Source: Prochlorococcus marinus bv. HNLC2 (GTDB lineage Bacteria > Cyanobacteriota > Cyanobacteriia > PCC-6307 > Cyanobiaceae). From it: 64,000 bases of DNA. The stretch lies in the NCBI GenBank assembly GCA_000218745.1, contig GL947595.1, positions 494,556-558,555 on the forward strand, in the 5' to 3' direction. Both the position numbers and the translations under genes were made by a program. Positions 40,141 to 45,008 of the stretch are shown one piece after another. The stretch's first letter is position 1. Every line of letters begins with the position of its first letter. The notes beneath the pieces were generated by a model. It made no database searches, was not told the origin of the DNA, and was given only the letters and a program-made list of their open reading frames with translations.

Positions 40141-41067
40141 TTATTTACTATCCTCTATCAAAAAAGATGGAGCCAACAATATACTTGAATAACTGCCAAC
40201 TACAATTCCTATTGCAAGAGCTATTGAGAACCAAAAAAGAGAATAAGAGCCAAATAATATTAATGTAAGCAAAGGAATGAGCGTTGTTAAACTAGTGAAT
40301 AAAGTTCTTCTTAAAGATTCATTTACAGATACCTCTATACTTTCATTAAAATTATTATATTTTTTTGATTTATTATTTTCTCTAATCCTATCAAAAATTA
40401 CAACAGTATCATTAACTGAGTATCCAGCAATTGTTAATAATGCAACTGCAAATAAACTATTTACTTCAACAGATAAAATTATACCTAACCATGAAAAACA
40501 ACCAAAAACAATAAATAAGTCATGAAATAAAGCTGTTAATGCAAGAATAGAAAATTTCTTATCAAATCTTACTGAGAGATATAATGAGATCGCTACTAAT
40601 GAAATAGCTAGAGAACTTAATCCATTAACTAATAAATCCTTACCCAACTTAGGTCCAACTGATCTAGAGTTTTTACTTCCAAAATCTAAAGGACCAATAA
40701 TTTCATTTATATTTTCAATTAGTTCTTCAGATTTATTTATTTTTATAAAGGGAGTTCTTATTGAAATTAATTTATTATCGTTTTGTACTTGTAATCTTAT
40801 ATTGTTAACAAGAGTTTTATCCCTTGAGATATCTCTTATCTTTTGTAATAAAATATCTGTTGTAATTTCTGAACAAGATTCATTACATATTCTTTCAATT
40901 CTAATTTCATTACCACCAACAAAATCCATGCCTAAATTTACAGGTTTTTTAATAGGTTTATAAAAACTTGATAACAAAATTCCACTTAAACTAAAAAGAA
41001 TTAGAAATAAGGAGAAATACCATATTCCTTTTTTGATTTTTAATAACTTTATAAATTTAGAGCTCAT
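40141..41067 (-). CDS. secF: Protein translocase subunit SecF
   Basis: Inner and thylakoid membrane subunit that uses the proton gradient to help SecYEG-mediated secretion. The 308-residue protein has six hydrophobic segments, the GMDFVGGNEIRIE segment after the first helix and the RND-type block SVNDTVVIFDRIREN. It overlaps the secD stop by 4 bases (translational coupling). Confidence 0.95.
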   Translation of the reverse strand: MSSKFIKLLKIKKGIWYFSLFLILFSLSGILLSSFYKPIKKPVNLGMDFVGGNEIRIERICNESCSEITTDILLQKIRDISRDKTLVNNIRLQVQNDNKLISIRTPFIKINKSEELIENINEIIGPLDFGSKNSRSVGPKLGKDLLVNGLSSLAISLVAISLYLSVRFDKKFSILALTALFHDLFIVFGCFSWLGIILSVEVNSLFAVALLTIAGYSVNDTVVIFDRIRENNKSKKYNNFNESIEVSVNESLRRTLFTSLTTLIPLLTLILFGSYSLFWFSIALAIGIVVGSYSSILLAPSFLIEDSK

Positions 41068-42561
41068 AATTTCTTATTAGATAAGTTCTTATTAATTATA
41101 TTTTTATCATTTATTAAATAAAGTTTTATTTGCCTCATAGATTGATAACTTGTCAAAAACCTTAAGAATGTTTTAGAACAATTTAAAGAGGTATATAAAC
41201 TTATAATTACTCCTATACCTAATGTGGCTGCAAATCCTTTGACAAAATTTGTACCCACTATAAATAATATAAAGCAGCTTATCAAGGTAGTTATATGTCC
41301 ATCGATTATTGATGAATTAGCCCTTAAAAAACCATTATCTATAGATCTAATTAAAGTATTTCCATTCTTTAATTCATCTCTAATTCTCTCAAAAATTAAT
41401 ATATTTGCATCTACTGCCATACCAAGGCTCAAAATCAATCCTGCTATACCAGGTAAAGTAATTGTTACAGGTATAAGAGAATATAGAGCTAGATTAAATA
41501 AACCATAAATTAATAGTGAAACTACTGAAATAAATCCAAGAATTCTATAATTAACTATCATAAAAAGACCAACAAATATCAAGCCAAGTATTGCCGCATA
41601 AAAACTTTTAATTATATTTCTATTTCCAAGTAATGCTCCAATAGTATTTGTTTCGATTATCTCTACTGGAAGTGGCAAAGATCCTCCTTTTAACTGCACT
41701 TCTAATTCGCGTGCTTCTTCAGCCGTGAAATTACCGCTTATAGTAGCAGATCCTCCTGTAATTCCAGTTTTAGAAAACTGATTCCCAACACTTGCTTCGC
41801 TAATAGATTCACCATCTAAAACTATAGATAATAAACGATCACTTCCAGCAATTGATTTTGTTAATTCAGCAAACTTATCTCCACCTTCACTATTGAAAGA
41901 TAATAAAACCTCCCAATTATTATTTGACTGTTCTTGTCTTCTTCCTGCACTAATTAAGTCTTTTCCAGTCAAATCTGTGGACTTAAATAAATTTGCAATT
42001 TGCTTATTGATATATTTTCTCTGGTCTACTAATTTTGAATAAAAATCAACTTTATCTGATTCATAACCTGTCACATCTTCAATACTTATTAAAGCACTTT
42101 TCAGCTTTTGAAAATTATTTTCATCATATTTTCTACTATTAAAGTCATTAAATAATTCTATTAAATTATTTATCTTTAAGTCTTTGTGCTTGAAAAGTCT
42201 TTAACTCTGTAAAGGTATTAGGAGTTTGAGTTCTAAATTCTAATAAAGCTGTTTTTCCAATAACTCTTGATGCAGATAATGGATCTTGTTCCCCAGGTAG
42301 TTCAATTATTAATTGATTATTACCTAGAGTTTGAAGATTAGATTCTGATACACCTAAGTTATTAACTCTCCTATCTAAAACTGCTTTAACAGATGCAAGT
42401 TCATCTTTGGTAACTTCTTCTTTATCTTTAATTAATTGAAGTGTTAATTGTGATCCACCCCTTAGATCCAAACCTAATTGAAAGGGATAATTAATTAATA
42501 AATAAATCGAAAAAGCTATCAAAAAAATAATAAAAAAAAGCCATCCTTGCCTTCTTTTCAT
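41064..42561 (-). pseudogene. secD: Protein translocase subunit SecD, frameshifted in the periplasmic domain
   Basis: Partner of SecF. The first frame (start 42561) holds the first helix, LGLDLRGGSQLTLQ and the early P1 domain, then stops after QRLKDK at 42166-42168. The +1 frame resumes with NNLIELFNDF, continues through VTGYESDK and the P1 domain, and ends with six helices including ILSLGMAVDANILIFERIRDE. The length is 3n+1, so one extra base near 42165-42172 breaks the gene. secD matters for growth, so an indel error is the likelier cause. It starts 3 bases after the pdhB stop. Confidence 0.9.
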
Positions 42562-42564
42562 ATT

Positions 42565-43548
42565 TTAAATACTCCCCTTTACAAGACTTTCAACTTGTTC
42601 AATAATTTGATGAGGTTGAATAATTGTTAGATTTTCTAAATTACCATTATAAGGAGTTGGAATATCCTGACTAGATAAGCGTATTGGTCTAGCATCTAAA
42701 TCATCAAAGCACTGCTCTGTAATTAAAGCTATAAGCTCAGCACCTATGCCTCCAGTTTTCATACACTCCTCAACAATTAATACTTTATTTGTTTTCTTGA
42801 TAGATTTGGATATTGTTTTCATATCAAAAGGTTTTAAACTTATAAGATCAATTAATTCAACATCAATATTATTTTTTTCTAGTTGCTCAATAGCTTTTAA
42901 ACAGTGGTGACGCATCCTAGAATAAGTTAGAATAGTAATATCTTTACCTTCTTTTACTAAATCTGCTTGATCAAGGGCGCATACATAATCCCCAGAAGGA
43001 AGTTCCTCAGATAAATTATATAAAAGTACATGTTCAAAAAATAAGACTGGATTATCGTCTCTTATAGCTGCCTTCATTAATCCTTTAGCATTAGTTGGGG
43101 TACTACAGGCTACTATTTTTATACCTGGAACAGCATGAAAATAGGCTTCTAATCTTTGGCTATGTTCTGCTCCAAGTTGTCTACCAACTCCTCCTGGACC
43201 TCTTACTACAGCTGGTATCTTATAGTTTCCACCACTTGTATATCGGAGCATACCCATGTTGTTTGAAATCTGATTAAAAGCAAGAAGTAAAAAACCCATA
43301 TTCATACCTTCAACAATTGGTCTTAGACCTGTCATGGCTGCACCTACAGCCATTCCAGTAAAGCTATTTTCAGCAATAGGAGTATCAAGTACTCTTAATT
43401 CTCCATATTTATCATAAAGATCTTTTGTCACTTTATATGAACCACCATAATGACCAACGTCTTCACCCATAATACAAACATTAATATCTCTAGCCATTTC
43501 TTCGTCAATTGCTTCTTTTAAAGCATTAAATAATAAAGTTGTTGCCAC
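42565..43548 (-). CDS. pdhB: Pyruvate dehydrogenase E1 component, beta subunit
   Basis: Beta subunit of the ThDP-dependent E1 of the pyruvate dehydrogenase complex, making acetyl-CoA. The 327-residue protein has [18 protein letters not shown], the [17 protein letters not shown] motif and the C-terminal transketolase domain ([16 protein letters not shown]). The alpha subunit is not adjacent. The start appears to be a GTG at 43548. It lies directly upstream of secD on the same strand. Confidence 0.95.
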
Positions 43549-43603: not shown

Positions 43604-43699
43604 TTATCCTCCTTCTGCAAAGGTTATAAGTAGTAATATTGATAAAATCATCCCAGGCGATAATAGAAGAATTAACAAGCCGAGGTCATGTAAAGACAT
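43604..43699 (-). CDS. Small membrane protein upstream of pdhB, 31 residues
   Basis: A frame from the ATG at 43699 to a TAA at 43604. It encodes a short polar start (MSLHDLG), one hydrophobic helix of about 20 residues with a central SPGM, and the tail FAEGG. The size and layout are like the one-helix subunits of photosystems or cytochrome b6f, but it matches none that I know. It lies about 55 bases upstream of pdhB and just downstream of the DUF3082 gene on the same strand. TATA-rich DNA precedes it. Confidence 0.5.
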   Translation of the reverse strand: MSLHDLGLLILLLSPGMILSILLLITFAEGG

Positions 43700-43736
43700 C
43701 TAAATAAGTTTATATATAGTTGATAATATTCAACTT

Positions 43737-44066
43737 TTACTTAATTTTTAAGAAAAAACTTCGAATAAATACAATAAATAAACCAAAACCAATAAATGCG
43801 AAAGAAAATGTTGCTAAAAATGATAATCCAACTATCAAAGTATTTAAGCTTGTAGATATACTTTGAACTATTTCAGAATTATTAGAAGGTCTATGAGTTG
43901 CAAAATAAATAGCTATATTTTTACTTATTAAATAAAAAATCATAAAAAGAGAAAAACTTGTTATTGATCCAATTAAAAAATTAAGTGGACCTTTCGGAGG
44001 ATCATTCTTATTATCATTTTCACTTATTTTTGATGAATCAATTTGATTTAATTCTTTTTTATTCAT
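43737..44066 (-). CDS. DUF3082 membrane protein
   Basis: A 109-residue protein with a charged N-terminal arm (about 1-25), PKGPLNFLIGSITSFSLF, and two hydrophobic segments (about 30-50 and 75-100). The layout fits the cyanobacterial/plastid DUF3082 family; function unknown. It starts 2 bases after the ispE stop on the same strand, which suggests an rsmA-ispE-DUF3082 transcript. Confidence 0.75.
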   Translation of the reverse strand: MNKKELNQIDSSKISENDNKNDPPKGPLNFLIGSITSFSLFMIFYLISKNIAIYFATHRPSNNSEIVQSISTSLNTLIVGLSFLATFSFAFIGFGLFIVFIRSFFLKIK

Positions 44067-44068
44067 AA

Positions 44069-45008
44069 CTAGATAATTTCAATACCTTTACTATGAAATT
44101 GGCATACCCAAACATCAAAATCAAATTTTTTAAATATTTCAATATTCTTCTTATATATTTTATTAGCCATATTAAAGTCTTCAAATATTGCATAACAACT
44201 TGGACCAGATCCACTCATAGAGGAGCAAAGAGAATTATCTAAATTAGATAAAATATTAAGCCCATCATTAACTGATTTAAATTCATATTGAACTATCTTC
44301 TGCAAGATCATTTCTAATATTTATTTTTTTTTGAAAAATATCTTTGTTTATAAATCCTAAATTTTTTAATGTATCTCTTTTCTGTTCGATATTTATATTT
44401 GATAAATCAATAAATCTAGAATATTTTTCATAATATTTCTTATAAACATATGCAGTTGATATTGAAATATTTGAATTTTTTATTAAAAGCAATCCATAAG
44501 GTTTAGTAAAATTATATTTTTTTAAAATTTCTCCTCTTCCAAAACAATATTGGCTTCCACCTTTTATACAAAATGGGACATCAGATCCTAATTTACTAGC
44601 TAATTGATGTAATATTTTTGAATTTAAATTTAAATTCCATAATTCATTTAAACCTATTAAAGTTCCAGCAGCATCACTAGAGCCACCTGCTAATCCAGCT
44701 CCTATGGGAATGTTTTTTCTTAAGAATATATTTGCTCCTAATTCTTTTTTACCTGAATAATCTTTTATGAGTCTAGCTGCTTTGATTATTAAATTTTCAT
44801 CACCATTATCTAGATTTGCAGAATCAGTTTTTAAATTTAATTTTCCTTCATTATTAATTTCAATTTCTAATTGATCTGAAAGATTAATACTTTGCATTAC
44901 CATTGCTAACTCATGGAAACCATCTTCTCTTTTTCCTATTATCTCTAAATGAAGATTTATCTTTGCTGGAGCATTAATGATTATTTTTTTGTTCTTTAGA
45001 TCTGACAT
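44069..45008 (-). pseudogene. ispE: 4-diphosphocytidyl-2-C-methylerythritol kinase, frameshifted
   Basis: GHMP kinase of the MEP isoprenoid pathway. The first frame (start 45008) has APAKINLHLEI and the ATP loop PIGAGLAGGSSDAAG, and fails after NIRNDLAE. The +1 frame resumes with IVQYEF and includes the C-terminal SMSGSGPSCYAIFED. The break lies at GAA G ATA GTT (about 44294-44299). Removing one G joins the halves, and the total length is 3n+1. The same ten bases occur at the second break of the peroxiredoxin gene. It lies 12 bases after rsmA. Confidence 0.9.

Follow-up and report, generated by a model that had tools for sequence, protein, structure and literature searches.

The window, by which we mean the whole stretch of 64,000 nucleotides that was analysed, contains a small open reading frame of 31 codons between a gene for a DUF3082 membrane protein and pdhB; it runs from an ATG at 43699 to a TAA stop at 43604 and encodes the peptide MSLHDLGLLILLLSPGMILSILLLITFAEGG (Table 1). 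A 31-residue, single-helix protein between these two neighbours was what the original prediction had described, and it is present as such; the strand, which had been left out of that description, is the minus strand. The small gene, which we call norf4 for the reasons given below, shares this strand with DUF3082, pdhB, secD, and secF (we take the last two to be secD and secF on recognising their sequences, not from a family scan). Two genes of the window contain one frameshift each, secD (at 42160-42175) and ispE (at 44283-44311); both are whole in relatives, and the frameshifts are probably sequencing or assembly indels.

Table 1. Features of the norf4 locus in the window, and the norf4 copies found on two viral contigs.
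Feature	Coordinates	Strand	Evidence or remark
norf4 (almost certainly the alpha-cyanobacterial ortholog)	43604..43699	-	ORF, homologs, purifying selection, predicted helix, identity with Norf4
Intergenic gap, DUF3082 stop to norf4 ATG (37 bases)	43700..43736	-	No Shine-Dalgarno-like 4-mer
DUF3082 membrane protein gene, upstream neighbour	43737..44066	-	Pfam PF11282, 3.9e-21
pdhB (pyruvate dehydrogenase E1 beta), downstream, 55 bases past the norf4 stop	42565..43548	-	NCBIfam NF006667, 2.1e-114
secF and secD (presumed), further downstream	40141..42561	-	ORFs; secD frameshifted near 42170 in the assembly
Phage norf4	L294:9611-9706		IMGVR_UViG_3300032087_005012 (L188/L294)
Phage norf4	L295:8307-8402		IMGVR_UViG_3300031841_004050 (L189/L295)

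Norf4 is predicted to be a single-span membrane protein with one transmembrane helix: the AlphaFold model, made from an 18-row alignment, consists of one helix at residues 3-28 with a mean pLDDT of 93.9, and the best 19-residue hydropathy window reaches 2.64. Pro15-Gly16 lies in the middle of this helix, and the protein ends in FAxGG. The resemblance in size and layout to the minimal subunits of photosystems and of cytochrome b6f, which had been noticed from the sequence, thus holds, since Norf4 has the size, the single helix, and the short tails of PsbM, PsaM, PetG, and other mini-subunits. No Shine-Dalgarno sequence is visible upstream of the gene in the window; of 68 upstream regions from alpha-type loci, 8 have an SD-like 4-mer, where 3.7 would be expected from shuffles, and of the 115 other regions 49 have one, where 12.0 would be expected.

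The window ORF codes for a protein and is conserved. Tblastn with the window protein gave matches in 42 of 60 relatives: 28 of the 37 genomes of the same genus (its own counted) at 94-100% identity, and 14 of the 23 genomes from other families at weaker identity, two of these other-family matches being a different small protein that was dropped (it is the sole match in G052, and stands beside a true copy in G050). Among the nine same-genus genomes without a tblastn match, three (G002, G025, and G034) are at least 92% complete. The different protein (loci L032 and L034, at about 1500-1650; MxxHDIPxIIxVLATGYLxxIYLLLVLAQRTTK) is likewise small and hydrophobic and is common to two cyanobacterial families, G050 having both proteins; its two BLAST matches were left out before we built the first profile (A1; 16 sequences, with no Synechocystis row). 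Searched against 386 genomes of the phylum, profile A1 matched 211 at E<=1, including each of the 60 from the window's own family; genomes of this set outside the class Cyanobacteriia reached 0.036 at best. A second profile (A2; 41 rows), searched against 388 Cyanobacteriia genomes with a cut-off of E<=0.01, matched 264, including 88 of the 88 from the window's own family, so that conservation in picocyanobacteria, which had been suggested as a check, is found throughout this family sample. The split of E-values was bimodal in 42 chosen genomes, in which real matches had E<=7e-8 over all 31 positions and the rest were partial, with E>0.06; the weak matches in families without norf4 (E 0.06-10) are short partial pieces, which we took to be chance. 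In addition, a degenerate pattern searched in named genomes found at least 119 stretches, and among the matches listed all titles are cyanobacterial. The gene is missing from G135, which we take to be Thermosynechococcus elongatus BP-1; from G048 and G441, presumably Gloeobacter (violaceus and kilaueensis, respectively); and from G282, which we assume is probably Gloeomargarita. It is present in G039, presumably Synechococcus JA-2-3B'a.

The pattern of substitutions is that of a translated gene. Third codon positions are the most variable among 73 unique alpha-type norf4 genes, and the codon differences among these genes give an N/S of 0.30, as compared to 2.80 for random point mutations. Seven residues (L9, L13, P15, L19, S20, G30, and G31) are invariant in 134 unique peptides, which were chosen by a text pattern already demanding parts of the motif; G16 is found in 133 of them, and M at the start position in 132. 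Conservation and codon statistics together rule out a chance ORF; the identity within the genus, the N/S ratio, and the family-wide profile matches bear out the earlier claim of a real gene with a conserved frame, and we regard it as practically certain that a real protein is encoded.

This protein has a published counterpart. Baumgartner et al. (2016; PMC5126843) reported Norf4 of Synechocystis as a 31-aa protein with one TM region, detected it as a FLAG-tagged protein, and left its function unexplained; according to the same paper, norf4 is present in UCYN-A and absent from the alpha-cyanobacteria. Its RNA in Synechocystis overlaps gap1, antisense regulation of which was proposed as a second role, and is low in darkness (PMC5126843). 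A pattern made from the published norf4 primers is found in 2 of the 388 class genomes (exactly in G139, and with one mismatch in G123), its coordinates in both are those of the profile A1 matches (3.1e-13 and 3.0e-13, respectively), and both loci encode MTADQLLMLVVLLVPGILLSALVMGSFAKGG. Because the primer pattern falls exactly on matches of a profile built without Synechocystis, the window ORF, judged by its sequence, can be assigned to the Norf4 family with very little doubt; the published absence of norf4 from the alpha-cyanobacterial lineage is contradicted. The window protein is 45% identical to the Synechocystis-type protein (in A2) and resembles it in its 31 residues, its one TM region, its conserved ATG start, and a gapless end-to-end alignment; the two differ in that the window gene adjoins pdhB and is not antisense to gap1. 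The protein was therefore not unrecognised, as the original prediction had it, having been published in 2016, though as absent from this lineage. No other cyanobacterial papers with "norf4" or Norf4 peptide strings were found in a literature search whose coverage left most subscription journals outside.

That the 31-mer matches none of the small subunits with which it had been compared is upheld by database searches. We found no Pfam family match for Norf4 (the best, at 0.057, involved 2 of the 41 members and an unrelated family), no NCBIfam match, and no homologous PSI, PSII, b6f, NDH-1, or other chain in the PDB, where the best scores (0.12-0.34 for a TsaD chain, and 1.5 for a sodium/hydrogen exchanger) were taken as chance. 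The PDB search works for such short proteins, because control queries from the window's own genome found their counterparts: PsbM matched PsbM (2.5e-7), and PetG matched PetG chains (2.6e-12). Chains or models of PetG, PetL, PetM, and PetN show no homology to Norf4 in Pfam or the PDB. With these controls working, the Pfam, NCBIfam, and PDB searches rule out a known mini-subunit. NdhP and NdhQ are single-span small subunits of NDH-1L; SliP4 (37 aa), which we also considered, is presumably the same gene as HliR1. Table 2 of PMC5126843 has NdhQ (Norf6; 46 aa in Synechocystis), NdhP (40 aa), and HliR1 (also 37 aa) as genes separate from norf4, which rules out NdhQ and, if SliP4 is HliR1, sets SliP4 apart as well. 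Norf4 is nevertheless like NdhQ and NdhP in being short, and these two are part of a complex kept by symbionts without photosystems.

Such symbionts also keep norf4. An intact 31-aa Norf4 is encoded in three genomes (G193, G227, and G309; E 2.4e-11, 4.1e-12, and 1.7e-12) in which the photosystem genes are decayed or gone: psaA/psaB are absent from G193 and reduced to stop-ridden pieces in G227 and G309; psbA/psbD are fragments in G193 and G309 and absent from G227; and psbM has one internal stop in G193 and is absent from the other two. All these genes are intact in the photosynthetic sister G189, and the three genomes have kept ndhH (NDH-1), COX1, cytochrome b, and petG whole. As far as Table 1 of PMC5638926 goes, G193 and G227 match the spheroid bodies EtSB (of Epithemia turgida) and RgSB (of Rhopalodia gibberula), and G189 matches Cyanothece PCC 8801. 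Between G309 and G189, norf4 has 15 codon differences, of which 15 are synonymous and none is non-synonymous; the other pairs of this comparison have 4-14 synonymous and 1-2 non-synonymous differences. norf4 is kept under purifying selection in cyanobacteria that lost both photosystems. According to PMC11070190, symbionts of this kind still have their thylakoids and respiratory electron transport once the photosystems are gone, and UCYN-A has lost PSII.

Gene neighbourhoods were compared in 207 loci having norf4 by a text pattern (93 alpha-type and 114 other); one neighbour count left out 5 of 189 loci, whose Norf4 escaped this pattern. The DUF3082-norf4-pdhB arrangement is stable in the alpha-cyanobacterial lineage, with 89 of the 93 alpha-type loci having pdhB near norf4 and 74 having DUF3082 there, some of the flanks being incomplete. 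Elsewhere, pdhB is beside norf4 in one non-alpha relative, and linkage to secDF occurs only together with pdhB, in the window's own family and one relative. In 38 of the 114 non-alpha loci, many of these 38 being from Nostoc relatives or from one genome counted twice, midA (Methyltransf_28; Pfam 1.3e-74 in one representative) lies upstream of norf4 on the same strand, with ndhH further upstream in 5 of the 114. Among 33 wide loci, most of which represent different families, midA is found in 2 and ndhH in 1, and this neighbourhood seems confined to one superclade; in 7 of the 33, the gene after norf4 is DUF760 (Pfam 6.9e-32), encoded on the opposite strand. NDUFAF7 belongs to the same Pfam family as MidA. 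Human NDUFAF7 methylates NDUFS2, the ndhH homolog, during complex I assembly, according to PMC3829151. Gene contexts thus differ between lineages, and linkage is only a hint. Two further neighbours were observed: a 3-hydroxyisobutyrate-dehydrogenase-like gene (40 loci, including L055, L115, and L199), which is downstream of norf4 in Nostoc relatives and upstream in Microcystis relatives; and petG, which follows norf4 on its own strand at a distance of about 590-620 bases in the three photosystem-less symbionts (L192, L194, and L196). The petG neighbourhood is absent from G189 and from the window's own genome, and looks like a local rearrangement.

The reading we prefer, with a probability of roughly 45%, is that Norf4 serves as an accessory protein, with a single span, in that part of thylakoid electron transport which is respiratory or shared. 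It would cross the thylakoid (or plasma) membrane as a single helix, having a short N-terminal His/Asp cap, a Pro-Gly hinge at mid-membrane, the invariant Leu19-Ser20, and the FAxGG end; it would pack against a large respiratory or shared electron-transport complex, and may stabilise or tune that complex as NdhP/NdhQ or PetG-type subunits do. Tentatively, NDH-1 is the leading partner, with about half of that probability, and is favoured because of the midA/ndhH cluster, the retention of norf4 in genomes without photosystems, and its absence from G135. The NDH-1 structures known to us come from T. elongatus; as this organism, taken to be G135, lacks norf4, they could not have shown Norf4. Genomes of the Thermosynechococcus and Gloeobacter kind have both NDH-1 and b6f, and other genomes that lack norf4 have NDH-1 too. 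Hence norf4 is not present wherever NDH-1 is, being missing from G135, G048, and G441, which speaks against this partner, and Norf4 is not essential to NDH-1. A purely respiratory role is also at odds with the low level of norf4 RNA in darkness in Synechocystis. As to the symbionts, a recent loss of photosystems leaves room for time lags, which weakens the argument from retention, yet in these genomes psaA/B and psbM are already decayed.

A role outside electron transport is possible, and nearly as likely as one in a respiratory or shared complex: like many bacterial single-span microproteins, Norf4 might act in membrane-protein biogenesis or turnover (Sec/YidC/FtsH), or in the tuning of a transporter. 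Its position before secD-secF in alpha-cyanobacteria, where it is possibly cotranscribed with them, its very variable neighbourhoods elsewhere, and its retention in reduced symbionts, which fits any housekeeping membrane role, are consistent with this. However, apart from one phage, all the matches listed come from oxygenic cyanobacteria; Sec, YidC, and FtsH, by contrast, have a nearly universal distribution, and the linkage to secDF has the narrow range given above.

A place for Norf4 among the small subunits of cytochrome b6f, a complex whose function the symbionts retain, is improbable, although the three genomes without photosystems have cytochrome b and PetG intact and petG near norf4. 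The same PDB search that found PetG chains, including those of 7r0w, 7zxy, and 2zt9 (which we take to be cyanobacterial b6f), found no Norf4 chain; the petG neighbourhood looks like a rearrangement, given its absence from G189 and the window's own genome; and the Gloeobacter-like and Thermosynechococcus-like genomes have b6f and lack norf4.

The original prediction, if read as an unrecognised minor subunit of PSI or PSII, fares worse and is now very improbable. Its length, one helix, and short tails are like those of PsbM, PsaM, and PsbT (PMC5126843, Table 2), norf4 is confined to Cyanobacteriia in the sample of genomes from the phylum, and the low RNA level in darkness would suit such a subunit. 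Unlike PsbM, PsaM, and PetG, however, Norf4 has no sequence relation to known subunits (Pfam, PDB), with no homologous PSI, PSII, or b6f chain in a search that does find PsbM; and norf4 is intact in G193, G227, and G309, where psbM is broken or absent, and was reported in UCYN-A, which lost PSII. Because it is intact in genomes without intact psaA/B and psbA/D, Norf4 is probably no part of a photosystem, and we are confident that it is not a photosystem core subunit. The photosystem hypothesis is thus strongly argued against, leaving a short list of candidate partners. That the functional product is the transcript, as an antisense regulator of gap1 whose ORF is incidental, would fit the overlap with gap1 in Synechocystis and has a negligible chance in view of the selection at the amino-acid level, the strict length of 31 residues, the wholly different neighbours in other lineages, and the detection of FLAG-tagged Norf4 (PMC5126843).

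Finally, two IMG/VR contigs encode Norf4 as MNLSDLGLLILLLSPGMFLSVILFFTFAKGG (profile 4.9e-15); the contigs are 99.5% identical over 11.9 kb, and so represent one phage seen twice. The phage norf4 is found among small unknown ORFs adjoining tRNA-Met and tRNA-Leu, and its start and the end of an 83-aa ORF overlap. The contig also encodes a portal protein (PHROG 145, 4.6e-85), a dCTP deaminase, and an HNH endonuclease; by its portal gene, which is 65-69% identical in DNA to those of the Synechococcus phages S-CRES1/2/3 and S-CBS2, the phage is similar to these cyanosiphoviruses. No norf4 was found in the stretches of 30-52 kb searched in the 71-74 kb records of S-CRES1, S-CRES3, and S-CBS2; nor by tblastn in 50,697 phage records, a search in which low-complexity 31-mers may be filtered out; nor, by a looser pattern, in further viral contigs, so that the IMG/VR pair is the only viral copy found. 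Host-like genes do occur in this group of phages: an S-type phycobiliprotein lyase in both S-CRES1 and S-CRES3, and CP12 in S-CRES3.

Norf4 is present in every one of the 88 genomes sampled from the picocyanobacterial family and in roughly two thirds of the sampled Cyanobacteriia, and symbionts that lack photosystems and one phage have it too; this points to strong selection on Norf4. Should the phage copy be confirmed, it would be a sign that Norf4 activity matters during infection. A more specific version of the preferred reading, which we consider rather doubtful, is that Norf4 is a missed subunit, or assembly or tuning factor, of NDH-1 (or of a different respiratory complex in the shared thylakoid), unseen because of its 31 residues and because Thermosynechococcus lacks the gene, and that the siphovirus copy would adjust the electron flow of the host; if true, norf4 would be a new cyanophage auxiliary gene. 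Just downstream of the phage norf4 there is a second tiny hydrophobic ORF, of 33 aa (L295:8583-8684).
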